From: Candidatus Methanoperedens sp.
GTDB lineage: Archaea; Halobacteriota; Methanosarcinia; Methanosarcinales; Methanoperedenaceae
DNA: 64,000 bases
Direction of reading: 5' to 3'
NCBI GenBank assembly: GCA_012026835.1
Contig: VEPN01000014.1
Span: forward strand, 1 to 64,000
Below are positions 15,138 through 48,976 of this stretch, in pieces; position 1 is the first letter of the stretch, and each line of letters begins with the position of its first letter. Under the pieces are notes generated by a model. It was given only the letters and a program-made list of their open reading frames with translations. It made no database searches and was not told the origin of the DNA. Position numbers and translations under genes: made by a program.

Positions 15138-16238
15138 CTAAGACGTATAAATCTCATTCCCGCGGATTACCTTCTCTGCGTCCCTTTCAAGTTTTGAAAA
15201 CATATTCTTATCAACTTTCTTTCCTGTAAGCTGCTCGATAAACATGAGGGACTTGGCATGGTCTTCGGGGAGCAGTTTCCATGTCGGCCTCTCCACGTAG
15301 TAATCTATCCCGTTTGCATAGTTCATCATTTTTATAGAAACGTCCTCGCTTATCCAGCCAATTTCAATGTAATACTCAAGTATATCATTGAGGTTGTTCC
15401 TTCCCACTTTTTCAAGCAGGAACTCTATCCAGTTCAGCATGATGATCGAGGTCTCAACCCTGTTATCGAGATAAGGCAACTTCGCCCCGTTGCCGTTATC
15501 CGAATATTGAGGTACAGGTTCTGATGATAATGGGTTTTGGGGTGCACCCGGGGTCTTCTGGGATGCAGGAGCAGGTGCGTTTTTTTGCATCTGTTCTTCT
15601 ATTATGGGCTTAAGGTTATCGAAGACCTGTTCCATGACTTTTTGTATAAGTTCATCCTGGTTGGGTGAACTCGTTTGTATTATTTGTGTCATTGCCTCAA
15701 GCCTGTTCTCGATTGTTTTGAATTTGTTATCGAATTCATCCTTCAGGCCTGCGGGGATTTCCGGGGTTTTCTGGCTCAAGGCTTCGATCTTTTTCTCTAT
15801 TTGTTCTATTTTTTCAGGAGCAACGCTCCCCTTGTCCCCCACAAAAGGGTTTACTGTGCTTGAAACCACTTCATATAAGGATAACAATTCAAGGAGGCTT
15901 TCATCTATCTTATCAAGCCGGTCTTTAAATTCATCTATCCTCTGCTTGGATGCCGAGACCGTGCTATCCATTTTATTTAATTTCACTTCAAAATCCTTTA
16001 CAGATTCGGTATTTGCGTTTATCTGCTCGGATTTTGAGTTTATCATCTCCTCGATCTTCTTGGCTGATTCTTCCTGGCTTTTTTTAAGCTGTTCAGCAAT
16101 ATCGGGGGTAGCAACTGTAGTAGCAGGGGTTTCAGAAGGGCTGGTTTCAGAAGTCCTTTTTATCTTTTCGATTTTTTTTATGAGGGACTCTTCAGGCATC
16201 TTTAATTTTTTAAACTTCTCCGATAAGTCCTCAAACAT
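15138..16238 (-). CDS. ArlD/E-domain coiled-coil protein (archaellum accessory, ArlCDE-like)
   Basis: 366 aa. The first ~240 residues are a long coiled coil (repeats such as EINANTESVKDFEVKLNK) with a Pro-rich spacer. The last ~110 residues form the archaellar D/E domain: the block ETSIIMLNWIEFLLEKVG, a GWISEDV turn and a KLLPEDHAKSLMFIEQL stretch. In euryarchaea ArlC/D/E sit at the archaellum base and receive signals through CheF. The gene is 33 kb from the archaellin cluster, next to the KaiC-like ATPase and the HEAT-CheC fusion. Only this one C/D/E protein is seen. AAGGA precedes the ATG. Confidence 0.83.
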   Translation of the reverse strand: MFEDLSEKFKKLKMPEESLIKKIEKIKRTSETSPSETPATTVATPDIAEQLKKSQEESAKKIEEMINSKSEQINANTESVKDFEVKLNKMDSTVSASKQRIDEFKDRLDKIDESLLELLSLYEVVSSTVNPFVGDKGSVAPEKIEQIEKKIEALSQKTPEIPAGLKDEFDNKFKTIENRLEAMTQIIQTSSPNQDELIQKVMEQVFDNLKPIIEEQMQKNAPAPASQKTPGAPQNPLSSEPVPQYSDNGNGAKLPYLDNRVETSIIMLNWIEFLLEKVGRNNLNDILEYYIEIGWISEDVSIKMMNYANGIDYYVERPTWKLLPEDHAKSLMFIEQLTGKKVDKNMFSKLERDAEKVIRGNEIYTS

Positions 16239-26226: not shown

Positions 26227-28500
26227 ATGGTAAGTATAAAAGATATGTCGTTAAGCAAGAAGCTGCTGGGCGGGTTCGGGCTTGTCAGCCTTCTGCTGTT
26301 AATTGTTGCTGTTATCAGCATAAATACCCTTATTTCGATAGACAAGGATACAGAATCATTGCTGGCAAATGAAGTCAGACTGGACGAGGAGGCTACGGAT
26401 ATCAATGTATTTTTGCTTGAAGCAAGACGTTCAGAGAAAGACTTTTTTGCGCGCCACGATGCTTCATATGTCGATAAAGTCACAGCAGCGGTTGCCGAAG
26501 TAAAGAAAGATGCGGAGAACATTAAGACTTTGGAAGTCCCCCAGGAAAGAAAGGAGATGGCGGACAAAGCAATAACATTGATAGGGGAATATGAAAAACA
26601 CTTCCTCGAAACTGTCCAGCTCGTCAAGGTAAAAGGACTTGATGAGAATTCAGGTCTCCAGGGAGAAATGAGGGCTGCTGTCAAAGCTGTGGAGGATGAT
26701 ATCAATAAACAGAAGGATTACCAGCTCATGGCAGATATGCTTACACTGAGACGCAATGAAAAGGATTACCTCATGAGGGGCGATGTTGAGTACCAGAAGA
26801 AACTGCATGAAAACGAAAAAATACTCCAGAGTCATCTTGCAGCAAGCAAGCTGTCCCAGTCCCTGAAAGATGATATCAATGCCAAGCTTCTTGTTTACAC
26901 CACGTCTTTTGATAAGATTGTTGAAATCGACTCACAGATAGCTTCCAAAGAGGCAGAGTTCATGGAAGCGGCCCACAATATGGAGCCGCTGCTCGAAGAG
27001 TTCAGGGCGGATGCTGAAGAGGATCGAAACACAATGACTGCCGAGACAGAAAGGACAAGTACTAACGCAAGAACAACCATAATAATCTTTTCTATCATAG
27101 CAATAATTGCAGGTCTTGGCATCGGGTTATACATCTCCCGCGCAATCACAAAGCCTGTGGACAGCATGCTTCACGCATCCAATAAGGTGGCTGAAGGCGA
27201 CCTCACGGTGCATGTGAAGAGCGATTCGAAAGATGAGGTGGGCCAGCTTTCCCAGGCTATCCAGACCATGACAGACAGTTTAAAAAATGTGCTTGGCAAG
27301 GTTCAGGATTCTGCCCTGAAGGTCTCTTCAACTGCCCAGGAACTTTCGGCCTCAAGCGAGGAGATGAAAGCATCCACTGACCAGATATCAAGCACAACGC
27401 AGGATATCGCAACAGGCGTGAGCCAGCAGGCCCAGAAGATGACAGAGGTCAGCAGGGCAATGAAAGAAATGGCAGACAGCGTCCAGCAGGTGGCAACAAA
27501 TTCACAGAAAGCCGCAGAAGGCGCAGATAAAGCAAATAAGACGGCGCAGGACGTGGGTAAGAAGTCTGACGAAGTATCACGCAAGATGAGCGAGATCAAG
27601 ACGACTGTCGATAACTCGGCTTCCGTAATAAGGAACCTTGATACCAAATCCCAGAAGATTGGCGAGATAATCGGTGCGATTACAAATATCGCAGACCAGA
27701 CCAACCTCCTTGCACTGAACGCGGCTATCGAGGCAGCCCGCGCCGGGGAACACGGCAGGGGATTTGCTGTCGTGGCCGATGAAGTGCGAAAACTTGCCGA
27801 GGAAGCAAGGGGCGCGGCAAACCAGATAACTGAACTCATAAAGGAAGTCCAGCAGGGAACCAAGCAGGCTGTCGAGAGCATGGAACAGGGCACAAAGACG
27901 GTCGGGGAAGGTGCAAAGAGCATTGAGGATACAGTATCCGCGATCAGCAGCATCGTAAAGGCCGCAGGGGAAGTGTCCACCATGGTGCAGGAGATCGCCG
28001 CCGCTGCTGAACAGCAATCAGCATCCATCGAAGAGGTCACATCTTCAGTTGAAGACGTGTCATCTATCAGCGAAGAATCGGCAGCAGGTACCGAGGAAGC
28101 TTCTGCCGCAGCCGAGGAACAGGCCGCATCAATGGAACAGCTCGTTCGCGCTGCACAGGAACTTGCAGGACTGGCCGAGGAACTCCAAACCGAAGTCGGC
28201 AGGTTCAACCTGGGGACTGCGGTAAAGCATGTGGAAGAAGCTGCAAGGCATGAGCATGCATCTGCACTTGCGCATGAAGCTATCTTAAAACATGAACACA
28301 AAGAAACGCAGGCAGTAAAGCATGCAGAAGAAACCCCGAGGTACGAACATAAACCCGAATATGAACTGGCCAGGAACGAAAAGAAACCTGCTGCCAAAGG
28401 CAAGGCGAACAGGAAACAGGGCGTGAAAACTGCTCCCAAACCCGATGCAGCCGGAGAAAGAATAGCTCCTCCGCCGGGTGAGCCAGCCCCGCCGGAATAG
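26227..28500 (+). CDS. Chemoreceptor with HBM sensor and His-rich tail (receptor 1)
   Basis: 757 aa from the ATG at 26227, chosen for the GGAGG at 26217. TM1 ~11-33; an extracellular HBM four-helix sensor with the two marker motifs [11 protein letters not shown] and [15 protein letters not shown]2 ~281-304; HAMP ~305-357; coiled-coil signalling domain ~360-660 with the hairpin tip [20 protein letters not shown]. The tail (~665-757) contains more than ten histidines plus a basic end, and could bind metal or tether partners. HBM receptors elsewhere sense small organic acids. cheW follows after 10 bp. Confidence 0.92.
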
Positions 28501-29138: not shown

Positions 29139-29236
29139 TGGGGTGAATTTGTTCTCAATCTTAAAGGGAAAAACGGAATGTTAGCACATCTTTGTGCTCC
29201 GGATAAAGTGTATTAAAATGAAGAAACAGGTGTGTG

Positions 29237-31423
29237 ATGATTAATATAAAAGACATGGCGTTGAGCAGGAAACTGATAGGCGGTTTCCTGCTTGTAATCG
29301 TTCTATTGATAATAGTAGCTGCATTGAGCGTCACAGAAATGGGTTCAATGGAAGCTGGAACAAACAGTTTGATCGAAAACGAGGTGGCACTCACTGAAAA
29401 AGCAGATGATATCAATATCAGCCTCCTCCAGGCAAGGCGTGATGAGAAAAATTTCCTGATGCGCGGCGACCTCCAGTATGTAGATAAGGTAAAAGCATCG
29501 GTTAGCGGTATCAGGAATGACGTAGCAGATATCCAGGAACTGGATGTGAGCCGGAAAACAAAGGATGATGCGAATGGTATTTTATCTCTGGCTTCAAGTT
29601 ATGAAAATACTTTCCTTGAGATCGTGAACCTGCAAAAGAAAATCGGTTTACAGGAAATGGAAGCGATAAACGGGGACCTGATAAACCAGGCGCGGGATGC
29701 AGAGGCTGACCTGAAAAAAGCTGGCAGCACAGACGGGCTTACACTCCTTCTTGAAGCAAGAAGGCATGAGAAGAATTATGTTATCCGGAAGGATACGTCT
29801 TACCAAGTTAAAGTACATGATGCTATCAACAGCGCAAAAAAAATCGTCTCCGCAGGCAAAGCCTCCACAGAAATGAAGGCCCAGATTAATTCAAAGCTTG
29901 ATAAGTACGTAGCCACTTTTGATAATTTTGTCAGCATATCCGAATCAAGGGATAAAAAAGAGGAAGAACTTGTAAATATAGCGCGCCAGATAGATACCGT
30001 GGTTGCCGGAATTATAAATGACGCAAGGAACCAGAGGGCTGCCGATATAGAAGCAATGGCATCTTCCAACCGTGTCTCTAAAATGACAGTTATCGCGCTT
30101 TCAATAATAGCAATCATAGCCGGGCTTGGCGCAGGCATCTACATCTCCCGCTCCATTACAAGACCAGTTGACAATATGCTCCAGGTCTCAAAGAAAGTCG
30201 CAGAAGGAGACCTCACAGTAGAAGTAAAGAGTGAATCCAGAGACGAAGTAGGGCAGCTTTCGGTTGCCATACAATCCATGACCGGGAATTTAAAGAGTGT
30301 TCTTGGCAAGGTGCAGGAATCCTCGATCAAAGTCTCATCCACTGCCCAGGATCTTTCAGCATCAAGTGAGGAGATGAAAGCTGCCACTGACCAGGTATCC
30401 ACCACAACACAGGATATCGCCAAAGGCGTAAGCCAGCAGGCCGCGAAGATGGCTGAGATCGCAAGGGCCATGAAAGAGATGTCAGACAGTGTGCAGCAGG
30501 TCGCAACCAATTCCCAGAAAGCGGCTGAAGGTGCGGCGGGTGCCAATAAGACAGCCCAGGAAGTCGGTAAGATATCAAACGAACTGGCGAACAAGATGGG
30601 TGAGATCCAGACTACTGTGGATAACTCCGCTGTAGTAATAAAAGAACTTGACGGCAAGTCCCAGAAGATTGGTGAGATTATAAGCGTGATAACCAATATC
30701 GCAGACCAGACCAACCTCCTTGCCCTGAATGCGGCCATCGAGGCTGCACGGGCAGGTGAACACGGCAGGGGTTTTGCTGTGGTGGCAGACGAGGTGCGAA
30801 AACTTGCCGAGGAATCAAGAGGTGCGGCCAGCCAGATAACCGACCTTATAAAAGAGGTGCAGCAGGGAACAAAGAAAGCAGTCGAGAGCATGGAGAAGGG
30901 CACAAAAATCGTTGGTGAAGGTGCCCAGAACATAGAAAACGTCGCTTTATCCATCAGCCATGTCGTCAAAGCAGCAGGCGAGGTTTCTAACATGATCCAG
31001 GAAATCGCGGCTGCATCACAGGAACAGTCAGCGTCAGTTGAGGAAGTCACATCATCGGTTGAAGAAGTCTCAGCCATAAGTCAGGAATCAGCGGCTGGCA
31101 CAGAGGAGGCTTCGGCCGCAGCAGAGCAGCAGGCTGCATCGATGGACCAGCTCGTAAAAGCAGCCCAGCAACTTGCACTTCTTTCCGAGGAACTGCAGAT
31201 GGCTGCATCGCGCTTTGTCCTGAAGTCCGCAAATGAGTTCATCCGCTGCTGGGATATAAAGAAATGTAAAAATGAGATCCAGCAGAAGTGCCCCGCATAT
31301 AACTCCAAAGAACCCCGCTGCTGGCTGATAGAGGGAACATGGTGCGGCGGCGTAAAACAGGGAGATGCGGAAGCAAAATTGCATAACTGCATGAGCTGTG
31401 AAGTTTTCAAGAAAAATACCTGA
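29237..31423 (+). CDS. Chemoreceptor with HBM sensor and two-CW C-terminus (receptor 2)
   Basis: 728 aa. TM1 ~12-32, HBM sensor with [14 protein letters not shown] and [16 protein letters not shown]2 ~282-304, HAMP, and a standard signalling domain. The last ~63 residues form a two-CW-type cysteine domain: [11 protein letters not shown], then [19 protein letters not shown] and CMSCEVFKK. This domain is cytoplasmic and could bind a metal or an Fe-S cluster for redox sensing; that is inference. The signalling domain is nearly identical in DNA to that of receptor 6. cheW 2 follows 28 bp downstream. Confidence 0.92.
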
Positions 31424-34325: not shown

Positions 34326-36596
34326 ATGATCGATATAAAGAGTATTTCGTTGGGGAAAAAACTCATAGGTGTTTTCGGGCTTATAACGCTATTGCTTATA
34401 ATTCTAAGCCTGATGAGCGTAACCACCCTTGGTACTGTTGATAGTGAAACAACATCCTTACTGGAAAATGAAGTCACGCTAAAAGAAAAGGCGTATGAAA
34501 TTAATTCCCAGATGCTCCAGGCAAGGCGCTCAGAGAAAGATTTCCTTATGCGCCTTGATGCCTCTTACATTGATAAAGTGACTGCGGCAACTGCTGAAGT
34601 TAAGAAGGACGCAGAAGATATAAAGAACCTGGATGTCCTGCCTGAAAGAAAGGAGATGTCAGACAAAGTGATAATATTGATAGGGGAATATGAAAAATCG
34701 TTCCTCGAAGTTGCCCAGCTTATAAAGACAAAAGGACTGGATGAAAACTCGGGGCTCCAGGGGGAACTTATTACCGCAGCCCGTGATGTTGAGGCTGAAA
34801 TCAAGAAACAGAATGATGACGGGTTAATGGCAGGTATGCTGGAACTGCGCCGGGATGAAAAAAATTATATTTTGCGCGGGGGGGTGGATAACCAGAAGGT
34901 ACTGCATGATAATGAAAAAATACTGAGGGATCGCATTGCTGCCAGCAAGCTGTCACAAAATACCAAAGATACCATTAATAACAAGCTTCTTGTATATATT
35001 TCAACTTTTGACAAGATCGTAAATATAGATGCCCAGATCATTTCAAAGAAAGCGGAGTTTACAAATAAAGTCCATGAGATAGAGCCGATAGTGGCTGAAT
35101 TCGTAACCGATGCCATAGCCGACGAATCTGCGGTGAGAGCCGAAACCCGGAAAATGAGCTCAACTGCAAAAACGACTGTAACTGTACTATCCCTGATAAC
35201 GATAATAGCATGCCTTGCCATAGGAATATATGCTTCCCGTTCTGTCACAAAGCCCGTAGATACTATGCTTTATGCTTCCAGGAAGGTCGCCGATGTAGCG
35301 CTTGAACTCTCGGCATCAAGCGAGGAGATGAAAGCCGCTACTGAACAGATATCCACCACATCCCAGGATATCTCACAGGGCGTAAGCCAGCAGGCCTCCA
35401 AGATGGCGGAAATTGCAAGGGCAATGAAAGAGATGTCGGAAAGCATCCAGCAGGTTTCAACCAATTCCCAGAAAGCGGCTGAAGGTGCAGATGCAGCAGA
35501 TAAGACAGCCCAGGAAGTGGGCAGTATGTCCAAAGACGTACTGAAGAAGATGACCGAGATCCAGATGACTGTTGACACCTCATCCAAGGTCATAAAAGAA
35601 CTTGATACAAAGTCACAGAAGATAGGCGAGATAATAGGTGTGATTACAGCTATCGCTGACCAGACCAACCTCCTTGCCCTGAACGCAGCGATTGAGGCTG
35701 CACGGGCGGGGGACCATGGCAGGGGTTTTGCAGTGGTGGCAGATGAGGTAAGAAAACTTGCGGAAGAATCAAGAAGCGCAGCGGGTACGATCACAGAACT
35801 CATAAAAGAGATCCAGCACGGGACAAAACAGGCGGTTGAGAGCATGGATAAAGGCACAAAGACTGTCACTGAAGGGTCGGGGACAGTTGAGAACTCAGCT
35901 ACTGCCATAGACCGCATAGTCAAGGCTGCCGGGGAAGTGGCCACAATGATCACTGAAATAGCCGCTGCCTCTGAAGAACAATCCGTGTCTGTAGAAGAGA
36001 TATCGGCCGCGGTTGAAGATGTATCAGCTATCAGCGAGGAATCAGCAGCCGCCACGCAGGAAGCTTCGTCTGCTGTGGAAGAGCAGACCTCGTCAATGGA
36101 ACAGCTTGTCATGTCTGCACAGAAACTTGCGGAATTGTCAGACAATTTGCAGGAAGAAGTTGTGAAATTGAAAGGCAGGTCAAAATCTGATACCCAATCT
36201 CAAAAGGATGAAGCGCAAATGCAGGAAACAGCAAAGGTGGAAACTATTGAAAAGAAACCCGCTGGAATGGATGGGAAGGATTGGAAGGATTGGAAGGATT
36301 GGAAGGATTGGAAGGATGGGAAACCTGCAAAACCTGAAGAGAAAAACAAAGGCAGGAAAAAAAAGATAGATAAAACTACTGTTACTGTTAAGAACTGCTG
36401 GGAATTCATGAAATGCGGAAGGGAGAAAGGTGGAAACAAATCAGAAGAGCTTGGAATATGTCCTGTTCACCCTGAAAAAGGCAGGGAATGCTGGAAAGTG
36501 GCAGGGACTTTCTGCGGAGGGAAGGTTCAGGGCACTGAAGCTCAAAAACATGATACATGCCTGGTATGTGACTGGTACAGGATAGTAAAAGCATAA
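34326..36596 (+). CDS. Chemoreceptor with HBM sensor, partly deleted HAMP and two-CW C-terminus (receptor 3)
   Basis: 756 aa; GGAGGATTGA before the ATG. TM1 ~14-34, HBM sensor ([14 protein letters not shown] and [14 protein letters not shown]), TM2 ~283-305. After TM2 the text [18 protein letters not shown] joins straight to [11 protein letters not shown]: compared with receptors 1 and 2, 45 residues covering the rest of HAMP are missing in frame. The signalling domain is intact. A WKD repeat and a basic linker lead to a two-CW domain ([34 protein letters not shown]). No TCACA promoter was found upstream. Confidence 0.9.
36274..36318 (+). repeat. 9-bp tandem repeat encoding WKD
   Basis: GGAAGGATT repeated about five times within receptor 3, encoding repeated Asp-Trp-Lys between the signalling and two-CW domains. 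Such repeats can change copy number and linker length. Confidence 0.9.
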
Positions 36597-44000: not shown

Positions 44001-44036
44001 AGTCCCTTTTTCTGGCATGCAGCTCTGGTATTAAAG

Positions 44037-44095: not shown

Positions 44096-44317
44096 ATGGC
44101 AGCAAAAAATTGTTGGGAACATAAAAAATGCGGAAGAGAAAAAGGCGGCGGCAAAGTAAGTGAACTGGGTATATGTCCGGCATATCCAAAAAACGGAAGG
44201 GACTGCTGGATGGTTGCGGGAACTTTCTGCGGCGGCAAAGTACAGGGAACACATGCCCAGAAGCTTGGTACCTGCATGACATGCGACTGGTATAAAAATG
44301 TAAGGGGACTGGTATAA
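44096..44317 (+). CDS. Stand-alone two-CW cysteine-rich protein
   Basis: 73 aa. The whole protein is the domain found at the ends of receptors 2 and 3: [36 protein letters not shown], then CMTCDWYKNV. Seven cysteines are at conserved positions, suggesting metal or cluster binding. Having its own motility-type promoter suggests it is a soluble partner or competitor of the receptor-borne domains, perhaps a redox-responsive one. Function unproven. Confidence 0.82.
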   Translation: MAAKNCWEHKKCGREKGGGKVSELGICPAYPKNGRDCWMVAGTFCGGKVQGTHAQKLGTCMTCDWYKNVRGLV

Positions 44318-44385
44318 AGAAGTAAAAACTGCGTTTCTCAATACATTATTATAATTTTTCTGAATATAAATCATTTTTTTCAACT

Positions 44386-44414
44386 TCACACTTTTTTCAC
44401 AAATCTGTTTATAT
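44386..44414 (+). promoter_or_regulatory. TCACA-type promoter of the membrane/zinc-ribbon operon
   Basis: TCACAC at 44386, TCACAA at 44397 and TTTATAT at 44408; 11/11-bp spacing. Confidence 0.8.
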
Positions 44415-44495: not shown

Positions 44496-44972
44496 ATGTC
44501 AAAAAAAATCATGTTATTAACTCTGTCCTGTCTTTTTTTGTTAATGCTGCCGAATGTTAAAGCCGATAGCCTCATCGAGGGTGTGGATACAAGCGGTACT
44601 ATCGTGCGTTTGATATCCTTCCTCCTTGGAATATGCGGCTCTACATACCTGGCGGCAGGACTCTGGAGAAGGGCGGAAAAAGGCTCGGAAAGCTGGAAAT
44701 ACCTCTCTATTTCCATGATAATGTTAATATTCTGGAACATAGTCATGACAGTTGGTATTTTATTGAATATCCTGAAAGTGAATATAGCTGATTCTGTAAA
44801 CATTGTAAGGTCTACTGAAGTTATCGATACCACTCTTGTTATCCTGAATATCCTTGACCCTGTGATAGAGGTCATGGTATTCCTGATATTGCTGTTTGGT
44901 CTGCGCAAGATTGTAAAAACAATGCGGGAAGAGCCCTGGAAAGTTTTCAGCAAGGAGGAACAGGATGAATGA
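44496..44972 (+). CDS. Membrane protein with signal sequence, unknown function
   Basis: 158 aa. A cleavable-looking signal (MSKKIMLLTLSCLFLLM, ending near VKA-DS) is followed by three hydrophobic helices (TIVRLISFLLGICGSTYLA, ISMIMLIFWNIVMTVGIL and VIEVMVFLILLFGLRKIV) and a charged cytoplasmic end. AGGAGAAGA precedes the ATG. No family recognised. First gene of a three-gene operon; it overlaps the next by 8 bp. Confidence 0.7.
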   Translation: MSKKIMLLTLSCLFLLMLPNVKADSLIEGVDTSGTIVRLISFLLGICGSTYLAAGLWRRAEKGSESWKYLSISMIMLIFWNIVMTVGILLNILKVNIADSVNIVRSTEVIDTTLVILNILDPVIEVMVFLILLFGLRKIVKTMREEPWKVFSKEEQDE

Positions 44973-45285
44973 AGCATTACTGGTAATCCTGAATACAATA
45001 GCCTCGATTATTGTAATAATATCCACAGTCCTGTCCTTTAACCTGCTTGTTGGCATCTCAAGAGAGCTAAAAGGCTTAAAGACAATGGACCTGATGTGGG
45101 AATATTTCATTATTATGACAAGCCTGTTCATATTGCTGGGTATTACAAGGGCCGTCGGAACGATAGGGACTGTTATTTTTATGGGTTTCCTGCCAATATT
45201 TGAGGCGTTATTATCTGTTATCCTGATATTATATTTCGCATTTGCTATTCTCTTAGCCATAGCTCTTGAGGAGATTACAGAATAG
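44965..45285 (+). CDS. Small three-helix membrane protein, unknown function
   Basis: 106 aa. Three hydrophobic helices (LNTIASIIVIISTVLSFNLL, IIMTSLFILLGITRAVGTI and ALLSVILILYFAFAILLAI) separated by short loops; GGAGGAAC before the ATG. The helix pattern recalls the preceding gene, so the two may form a hetero-oligomer. Coupled to the preceding gene by overlap; the zinc-ribbon gene starts 1 bp after its stop. Confidence 0.7.
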   Translation: MNEALLVILNTIASIIVIISTVLSFNLLVGISRELKGLKTMDLMWEYFIIMTSLFILLGITRAVGTIGTVIFMGFLPIFEALLSVILILYFAFAILLAIALEEITE

Positions 45286-45286
45286 T

Positions 45287-45862
45287 ATGAGCAAGATACT
45301 TTCAGAAGAAGAACGGCGTCACATGCTCGAAAAACTCGAAAGCAAGATAGTAGCGACCCGTTTCATGACCCTGAAGTACATATCTTCTTCAATAAACACA
45401 GATAAAGTCGATTTTGGGAAAATGGATATTGAGATACCGGAATTCACAAAGACGCTTGTAAGGATAATTGAGATGCTGGCCGAGAAAGACCCCGAGGAGA
45501 TGGTCAAGCGTGAAGCCGGTGTATGTATTGAGAATCTCAAGAAAAAACTCAATCCCACACTCAGGCACGATGTGCCGACATGCATATCATGCGGTGAGAG
45601 GCTTGTTGTTTCGTACAAATTCTGTACCAAGTGCGGCGTGGAATTAAAAGGCCAGAAATGGCTTTCAACCTACAAGCCATGCGAAAAATGCCAGAATCCC
45701 GTTGATCCCGTGTGGACAAACTGTGCGAACTGCGGCAACGTACTGATAAAGAAAGTGGAAGTTTCCAAGATATGCCAGTTCTGCAAGAAAACCATTGACC
45801 CGAACTGGATCATGTGTCCGTTTTGCGGTTCAAAGCTCAAGCTTGGGATTCCGGGTACATAG
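45287..45862 (+). CDS. HEAT-like protein with zinc ribbons
   Basis: 191 aa from the ATG at 45287. The first ~95 residues are helical and HEAT/ARM-like (TLKYISSSIN, FTKTLVRIIEMLAEKDPEE). The rest holds six CxxC knuckles, i.e. three zinc ribbons (CISCGERL/CTKCGVEL, CEKCQNPV/CANCGNVL, CQFCKKTI/CPFCGSKL). A cytoplasmic adaptor is likely. Third gene of an operon under the motility promoter, after two membrane proteins; HEAT-like helices also occur in the HEAT-CheC fusion. Confidence 0.75.
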   Translation: MSKILSEEERRHMLEKLESKIVATRFMTLKYISSSINTDKVDFGKMDIEIPEFTKTLVRIIEMLAEKDPEEMVKREAGVCIENLKKKLNPTLRHDVPTCISCGERLVVSYKFCTKCGVELKGQKWLSTYKPCEKCQNPVDPVWTNCANCGNVLIKKVEVSKICQFCKKTIDPNWIMCPFCGSKLKLGIPGT

Positions 45863-46151: not shown

Positions 46152-46227
46152 TCACACAAGCTTATTTATATGCACACAATTTACACAACTTTCCTGCTTC
46201 ACACATTCCTCACAAATTTGTTTATAT
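46152..46227 (+). promoter_or_regulatory. Double TCACA-type promoter region of RHH gene 1
   Basis: The main copy has TCACAC at 46199, TCACAA at 46210 and TTTATAT at 46221 (11/11-bp spacing), followed by AAGGTGAA. A second, looser copy lies upstream: TCACAC at 46152 and TTTATAT at 46165, plus a GCACAC/TTACACAA pair at 46172-46188. Confidence 0.75.
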
Positions 46228-46280: not shown

Positions 46281-47333
46281 ATGTCTATCAGGAAAAATAT
46301 ATCATTAGAAAAGGTACATTTGAAGAAGCTTGAGCCCCTTATTTTAAAGCATAAGGGAAATTTCAGCGCCGCCATGCGTGAAATAATTGACCTTATCGAT
46401 ACGATGATTAAAGACCCTGATGCAGCAACAGGGCTTATAGACGGCTTAAAAACCGATAATAACCTCACTGAAACAGTTATGTACTGGCTTATCAGACAGG
46501 CGCACGGCAGGCTCATAGACCAGGAAATCATCAACAGCATCCTTGAATCTTCCAGGATAGAACGGCTTTCAGAAATTGAGAGCTATCTTGATGATATGGC
46601 AGGCGGGGCAAGCTGGCAGACAAAAATAAGGATATATGATTACGATGACGATATGAACCCTTCACATGCAAGGGTCACGCTGACAGGGAATAATGCTTAT
46701 AAAACCGAATTCCTGGGGAATATCATCTCTTCCTTTATGGTCTCCCAGAAAAAACAGGAGATTGTCTCTCTTAAAAGAACGTCCAGTACGATCACTATCA
46801 ATTTCAGGAAGCAGGCCAGTCCAAATCTTGCGGGCCAGTCTCTTGTTGATCATTTTGGCCAGATGGAAGATATCACTTCGGAGATATCTAAAAAGATGGA
46901 ATTCTGGAAATGCATCGTTAACCTGTATAAGCAGACCAATTATAATATGGTAACAATTCCGAAAAATTATTATAATGAATTGCTGATGGGAAAAGAAGCG
47001 CCAAGCTATCTTACAGCATCAATCGAGGCCATACATAAGGTTCCGATAAGGGATATCCCATTAGGGACCCTTATTTCAACCATGAAATCAGTGTATGAAT
47101 ATATGGGCGTTGTAGAGCGGATCGATGTGGACGAGAACACCTTGAAGATTTACCACGGTTATACGGATTCTCGTGCAATAAATGCCATTGAGAAGATACT
47201 TTTGAATGTGCTTAATGCCAATGGCAGTCTATATCAATCCCGCTGCTCTGAAAACCTGATAGTCATGAGCCCGGTGGTGCGCAAGGATGGGGAGAAGCCG
47301 GCCAGTCCTGTACCAGGAAATTTTTTAATCTGA
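46281..47333 (+). CDS. Ribbon-helix-helix protein 1 with large C-terminal domain
   Basis: 350 aa; AGAGGAAT before the ATG. Residues ~3-40 fit an RHH DNA-binding fold: strand RKNISLE, helix VHLKKLEPLILKHKG and then NFSAAMREIIDL. The remaining ~300 residues are mixed alpha/beta and unrecognised, with repeated CheC-unrelated strands (ARVTLTGNNAYKTEF, STITINFRKQ). It is paralogous to the 222-aa gene at 47539 in its first ~45 residues and shares its lone-helix spacing. Placed inside the motility cluster and carrying the cluster's own promoter, it is a candidate regulator of it. Confidence 0.7.
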   Translation: MSIRKNISLEKVHLKKLEPLILKHKGNFSAAMREIIDLIDTMIKDPDAATGLIDGLKTDNNLTETVMYWLIRQAHGRLIDQEIINSILESSRIERLSEIESYLDDMAGGASWQTKIRIYDYDDDMNPSHARVTLTGNNAYKTEFLGNIISSFMVSQKKQEIVSLKRTSSTITINFRKQASPNLAGQSLVDHFGQMEDITSEISKKMEFWKCIVNLYKQTNYNMVTIPKNYYNELLMGKEAPSYLTASIEAIHKVPIRDIPLGTLISTMKSVYEYMGVVERIDVDENTLKIYHGYTDSRAINAIEKILLNVLNANGSLYQSRCSENLIVMSPVVRKDGEKPASPVPGNFLI

Positions 47334-48343: not shown

Positions 48344-48976
48344 ATGAGCAATAAAAAGTTAAAATACTTACTTATTGTTAACAGCGAACCCGATATTGCA
48401 GATCTTTTTGCAGAAATGCTGCTCATGGATATTGAAAAATACATAATCAACACTGCATATACGGGAAAGGATTGCCTGTTAACACTGAAACGGGATAGGC
48501 CAGACATGGTCTTGCTGGATCTTGAGCTTTCGGATATGGATGGCTGGGAACTGGTTGAAAAGATAAAGGAATCAAAGCCCGATATACCGATAGTGATTGT
48601 TACCTCAAAAATCCCGGGCGTGGATGATTTCACGCGCTTATCCATGGTCTCAGACTATCTAATGAAACCTGTTACTATTGATTGTCTTTATATGGCTGTG
48701 AGAGATGCCCTGGAAATCCCGGCTCTTGTTGAGAACTGTATTAAGACCTTAAAGGGATTCAATGAAATAGACAGGGCTCTTTTAGAAAAAAATATCCGCC
48801 TGCTCAGGCAGAGCATCAGTGACAGGAAATTTTTCATTATGATGCGCCAGCTTTACCCCGAAAGAAAAGCAAAAAATGAAACCGGTATCATGCGTAAGCT
48901 TGAAGCCCTGAAAATAAAGATTGACAGGGAACACAGCGAATTAGAGGATTTTAAAAAACGCTGTTTAATCGCTTGA
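48344..48976 (+). CDS. Receiver-domain protein with altered acidic pocket
   Basis: 210 aa. REC domain ~5-125 with phosphoacceptor D59 in LLDLELSDMDG, Thr in VIVTSK and Lys in LMKPVT. The usual acidic Asp pair is replaced by Asn-Ser-Glu (VNSEP at 12-16), which may lower Mg binding and phosphorylation. The C-terminal ~85 residues are helical with no known output domain. The ATG lies about 27 bp from the TATA box, so the mRNA is nearly leaderless. Confidence 0.8.
   Translation: MSNKKLKYLLIVNSEPDIADLFAEMLLMDIEKYIINTAYTGKDCLLTLKRDRPDMVLLDLELSDMDGWELVEKIKESKPDIPIVIVTSKIPGVDDFTRLSMVSDYLMKPVTIDCLYMAVRDALEIPALVENCIKTLKGFNEIDRALLEKNIRLLRQSISDRKFFIMMRQLYPERKAKNETGIMRKLEALKIKIDREHSELEDFKKRCLIA

Follow-up and report, generated by a model that had tools for sequence, protein, structure and literature searches.

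CheF (PF04283) is the archaeal chemotaxis adaptor that connects CheY-P to ArlCDE; it is a soluble protein with two PH-like domains and a CheY-binding tail (PMC9126983). It occurs in genomes with chemotaxis and an archaellum, and in Methanoperedenaceae its place appears to be empty. The described archaellum promoter system, EarA/TACATA, uses a short, repeated box that precedes the BRE/TATA region in the promoters of motility genes (PMC10665913). Here we analyze a 64,000-nucleotide stretch of Candidatus Methanoperedens sp. DNA (hereinafter designated the window) that carries a three-gene unit (hereinafter designated A-B-C) behind a tandem TCACA box. The TCACA box resembles the TACATA box in being a short repeat at the corresponding upstream position, but repeats at an 11-bp period ahead of many che, mcp and arl genes, and its regulator candidate is a ribbon-helix-helix-like protein. 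Unlike CheF, protein C combines a helical domain with zinc ribbons and has two membrane partners, and it shares no sequence match with CheF. A literature search returned no description of the A-B-C unit and none joining Methanoperedens, archaellum and chemotaxis.

Arrangement and conservation of A-B-C

The unit and its immediate surroundings in the window are as follows.

44096..44317, + strand: two-CW domain gene, upstream of A, with its own TCACA box at 44036
44385..44414, + strand: tandem TCACA box and TATA-like element (TTCACACTTTTTTCACAAATCTGTTTATAT), the operon promoter, kept upstream of A at 19 of 21 other loci
44496..44972, + strand: gene A, 158 aa, a signal-peptide-like segment followed by three transmembrane (TM) helices
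44965..45285, + strand: gene B, 106 aa, three TM helices
45287..45862, + strand: gene C, 191 aa, an N-terminal helical domain (LSEEERRHMLEKLESKIVATRFMTLKYI...) followed by three zinc ribbons
46281..47333, + strand: RHH1, a ribbon-helix-helix-like protein as read from its N-terminus, with its own box at 46198

The initial annotation had described a tight three-gene operon, and the window bears this out: all three reading frames are present and closely packed, with A and B overlapping by 8 bp and C starting 2 bp past the B stop codon. At related loci of Methanoperedenaceae the order A, B, C is constant and the genes are contiguous wherever they are found. Purifying selection acts on all three genes, most strongly on C (pN/pS of 0.26-0.37 for A, 0.16-0.20 for B and 0.11-0.16 for C), and A-B-C is a real, conserved unit within the family. 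The best-matching named locus for A is a 95% identical gene of an uncultured archaeon, followed by a named Methanoperedens MAG, and the near relatives of the window genome all fall in one genus. In one MAG (G018), contigs C38 and C92 carry two differing copies of A-B-C with RHH1, reflecting either duplication or strain mixture.

Pfam scans assign neither A nor B to a family. The core of A consists of three TM helices, because the frames read in G014 and G017 lack the signal-peptide-like start. A ends in a conserved C-terminal tail, PWxVFSKExxDE, and B, which has the same topology, carries a conserved loop, SRELKGLKTMDxMW; the distribution of charges places the loop and tail of A on the putative cytoplasmic side. 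The two proteins also share a similar PV[IF]E motif ahead of TM3. Mutual homology of A and B was considered and rejected, the profile comparison being non-significant and 8 of 150 local shuffles reaching the score.

C contains three zinc ribbons, each of the form CxxC-x10-CxxC, whose 12 cysteines are invariant in a 19-row alignment; one of the G018 copies has a single-residue deletion that alters one ribbon. These repeats place C above the cut-off for the double/triple zinc-ribbon families (PF12773, PF13248 and PF13240; DZR at 50.5 bits against a cut-off of 27.3), an assignment that covers only the C-terminal half of the protein. The three ribbons claimed at the outset therefore stand, but the TTG start at 45266 originally given for C does not, as orthologues start from the ATG at 45287. 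The initial view of a three-gene unit of unknown families within the motility regulon is likewise supported. Across ten loci, including a sister genus, the first 97 residues of C show 87% mean column identity, a level of conservation that suggests a binding surface; C also has a conserved VATRFMTLKY surface. Structure models, built from three sequences drawn from the window and its related loci, are weak (pLDDT 58 for C and 62), and the N-terminal ~90 residues of C are modelled with modest confidence as three helices. The best fold matches of the C model have Z < 9 and represent common, unrelated helical folds (HTT, BAG, GAT and TOG), and sequence searches of solved structures gave no useful match. 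The label "HEAT-like" is thus not established: no HEAT profile in Pfam matches C itself, and the one weak match (HEAT_2, 0.034) lies in a homologue of C from G270.

That homologue is one of three that a profile of the C N-terminus detects outside Methanoperedenaceae among 392 genomes of the phylum (G270, G260 and G081), a set in which the B profile finds nothing outside the family. In G270, arlCDE-F-G-H-I-J is followed by a short gene, a methyltransferase gene, a gene for a 171-aa protein and then C; in G260 the methyltransferase and 171-aa genes likewise lie upstream of C; and the G081 homologue carries a single ribbon, with no motility gene visible nearby. On these weak numbers, C may be spread more widely than A and B, with a motility context appearing once more.

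The TCACA box and its candidate regulator

The operon promoter at 44385 reads TTCACACTTTTTTCACAA-N5-TTTATAT, and its 18-bp TCACA block is identical to that of arlB1, confirming the exact 11-bp-period TCACA promoter previously noted before the operon. The general pattern in the window is TCACAC-N5-TCACAA-N5-TTTATAT. All 14 tandem sites in the window keep the exact 11-bp period, lie on the + strand (a search of the minus strand found none) and stand 59-169 bp ahead of a gene for chemotaxis, the archaellum or a regulator. Behind the sites lie a KaiC-like gene, an RR-PadR gene, a receptor, the two-CW gene, A, RHH1, three archaellin genes and cheY. In the whole genome, with up to 3 mismatches, the pattern occurs 24 times and a reversed-pattern control twice.

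We extended the survey to 60 genomes, including our own, allowing at most 1 mismatch. The box occurs in the CheA-bearing Methanoperedenaceae, and the CheA-less ones have none or a single site; outside the family it is absent except for one site in G038, and the reversed-pattern control is zero in every genome. All 21 genomes with A have at least two box sites, and the box is kept before A everywhere except in G014 and G027. A-B-C thus belongs to the TCACA motility regulon of Methanoperedenaceae, as defined here.

RHH1, which has no Pfam match, has orthologues (at least 64% identity) almost exactly in the box-bearing genomes, and many of them carry their own box. A and the RHH1 orthologue occur together in 20 genomes, A alone in 1, RHH1 alone in 1 and neither in 12 (p 3e-7, a value that ignores shared ancestry). 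RHH1 is a likely candidate for the regulator of the TCACA box and its regulon, as judged from this co-occurrence.

Two further genes lie behind the box outside the window, on other contigs (genome G000). One, on contig C108 (L076:1581-2105), encodes an HNOB (haem-NO-binding) protein, starts ~80 bp downstream of a tandem TCACA box and is a probable NO/O2 sensor of the motility regulon. The other, on contig C42 (L066:1573-1920), encodes a 115-aa, apparently three-helix membrane protein that has no Pfam family and does not detectably resemble A or B.

Co-occurrence with CheA and gene neighbourhood

We compared 34 Methanoperedenaceae genomes (our own and 33 relatives) and 26 others of the same order. 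A is present in 20 of the 33 relatives, hence in 21 of 34 with our own; the 26 genomes from elsewhere in the order all lack it. Within the family, A and CheA occur together in 21 genomes, CheA alone in 3 (G002, G010 and G032) and neither in 10; no genome has A alone, and no A-B-C orthologue was found in any CheA-less genome of the 34. The association is strong (Fisher p 2e-6), although this value ignores shared ancestry and most of the CheA-less genomes may belong to a single clade. Among genomes at least 90% complete, A shows no association with ArlJ (17 with both, 8 with ArlJ only; p=1), and the CheA-less relatives that retain an archaellum are without A. Since a sister genus has the full set, joint loss in the CheA-less group would be the simplest history. 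Eight congeners (G001, G012, G013, G016, G022, G026, G028 and G030) have an archaellum ArlJ (50-56% identical) and no orthologous CheA, and apparently make archaella without this chemotaxis system.

Three genomes depart from the common pattern. G002, 93% complete, has CheA, the box and RHH1, and A is undetected; the 204 bases read beside its contig-end box contain no A-like frame. Either A-B-C is not strictly needed, given G002, or A sits in a gap of that assembly. G010 has CheA and one box and lacks both A and RHH1. In G027 (63% complete), A and CheA are present and no RHH1 orthologue was found; its ArlJ is divergent (54%), its CheA close (69%), and A-B-C is there.

In ten genomes (G000, G005, G007, G008, G011, G014, G024, G027, G031 and G033) A-B-C is linked to receptors, arl genes or arlCDE; in ten others (G003, G004, G006, G015, G017, G018, G019, G020, G021 and G025), within the stretches read, it is unlinked except to the two-CW gene or RHH1, and the G009 contig is too short to judge. 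Unlinked copies have a pheT-like gene and further housekeeping genes among their neighbours, and the box is nevertheless kept. Of the grounds for refutation named in the initial annotation, orthologues away from motility genes or in non-motile species without the promoter, half therefore applies: A-B-C is often found apart from motility genes, but it retains the promoter and turned up in no CheA-less genome. In G014, A begins ~22 bp after the stop codon of a chemoreceptor gene and has no box of its own. In G027 a receptor gene, the two-CW gene and A-B-C follow one another and lead up to convergent arlCDE, with A lying behind the two-CW gene and again without its own box. In G031 and G033, A-B-C is flanked by arlCDE/KaiC-like genes and RHH1, so that arlCDE lies near A-B-C in three genomes. 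The two-CW gene often adjoins A in relatives. Its domain (NF045718) also forms the tails of the chemoreceptors at 29234-31423 and 34326-36596, of which 44096-44317 is a free-standing copy; the domain is not found within A, B or C.

The apparent CheF gap and possible roles of A-B-C

Two further genes of the window bear on the link between CheY and the motor.

15138..16238, - strand: arlC/D/E fusion, switch complex (PF05377 + PF04659)
48344..48976, + strand: response regulator with a C-terminal extension, beside the archaellins

Searched with PF04283, all 34 family genomes came out negative, including those with CheA, archaellum and ArlCDE, as did A, B and C and the rest of our whole genome; the same search was positive in M. 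jannaschii, H. volcanii, M. acetivorans and five genomes of the order. Absence of ArlCDE was also considered and rejected, ArlCDE being present. With CheF undetectable while ArlCDE and CheW (at 28478 in the window) are present, either CheF has diverged beyond recognition or another protein connects CheY to ArlCDE. ArlCDE, the chemotaxis target on the motor side and a neighbour of A-B-C in some genomes, is a separate gene, fused here, and is unrelated to A-B-C in sequence.

The reading we favour, with confidence evenly balanced between belief and doubt, is that A-B-C is a membrane-docked accessory of chemotaxis signalling, restricted to the Methanoperedenaceae lineage. It probably aids chemotaxis rather than motor building, because it shares its promoter with the swimming genes and is found only in species with CheA. 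A and B would form a small membrane anchor whose N-terminus faces outward and whose positively charged loop and tail face inward. C could then be recruited by the A tail and the B loop; its strongly conserved helical domain would dock onto a shared partner, be it the receptor array, CheA/CheW or ArlCDE, while the three zinc ribbons might supply further protein contacts. The outcome would be that part of the chemotaxis apparatus is held at the membrane, close to the receptors or the motor.

A more specific proposal, which we consider unlikely, is that C, anchored by A and B, stands in for CheF, binding CheY-P and ArlCDE and relaying the signal to the motor. The missing CheF, the tracking of CheA by A-B-C and its contact with arlCDE in G027 all speak for it, but C has no CheF-like sequence and the CheA-bearing G002 and G010 lack A-B-C. 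Moreover, G037 and G045, from another family, have CheA and neither CheF nor A, implying that another solution exists, and an alternative candidate for the missing role is the response regulator with the C-terminal extension (48344), which G002 and G010 possess as well. Slightly less probable still is an envelope function merely co-regulated with motility, such as S-layer or archaellum positioning; the frequent separation of the operon from che and arl genes would fit it, but the operon is missing along with CheA where the archaellum remains.

We doubt even more that A and B form a membrane sensor with C as its output to the receptor array or to motility-gene transcription. Some A sequences give weak Pfam matches to sensor membrane modules (MASE4 0.0027, HisKA_7TM 0.04), and zinc ribbons could bind nucleic acid; yet only 2 of 19 members show these matches, which are no stronger than unrelated ones such as tetraspanin, a helix-turn-helix or enzymatic output domain is absent, and a better regulator candidate, RHH1, lies adjacent. 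We regard it as very improbable that the operon encodes a stator-like ion channel or a structural component of the archaellum motor, despite the invariant Asp121-Pro122 within TM3 of A, because congeners with an archaellum and no CheA lack the operon, while neither A nor B has a Pfam match to MotA/MotB or ExbB/TolQ-type stator families, a cell-wall-binding domain is absent and archaellar torque is ATP-driven through ArlI. Among the functions first suggested for A-B-C, a receptor-side role perhaps survives and the motor part and stator-like channel find no support.

Communication between receptors and motor in archaea is known from few lineages, where it runs via CheF. In place of a detectable CheF, Methanoperedenaceae carry uncharacterised, co-distributed genes, and the TCACA box delimits a gene set in which the missing link can be tested, making it a concrete, testable question in a family of environmentally important methane oxidisers.
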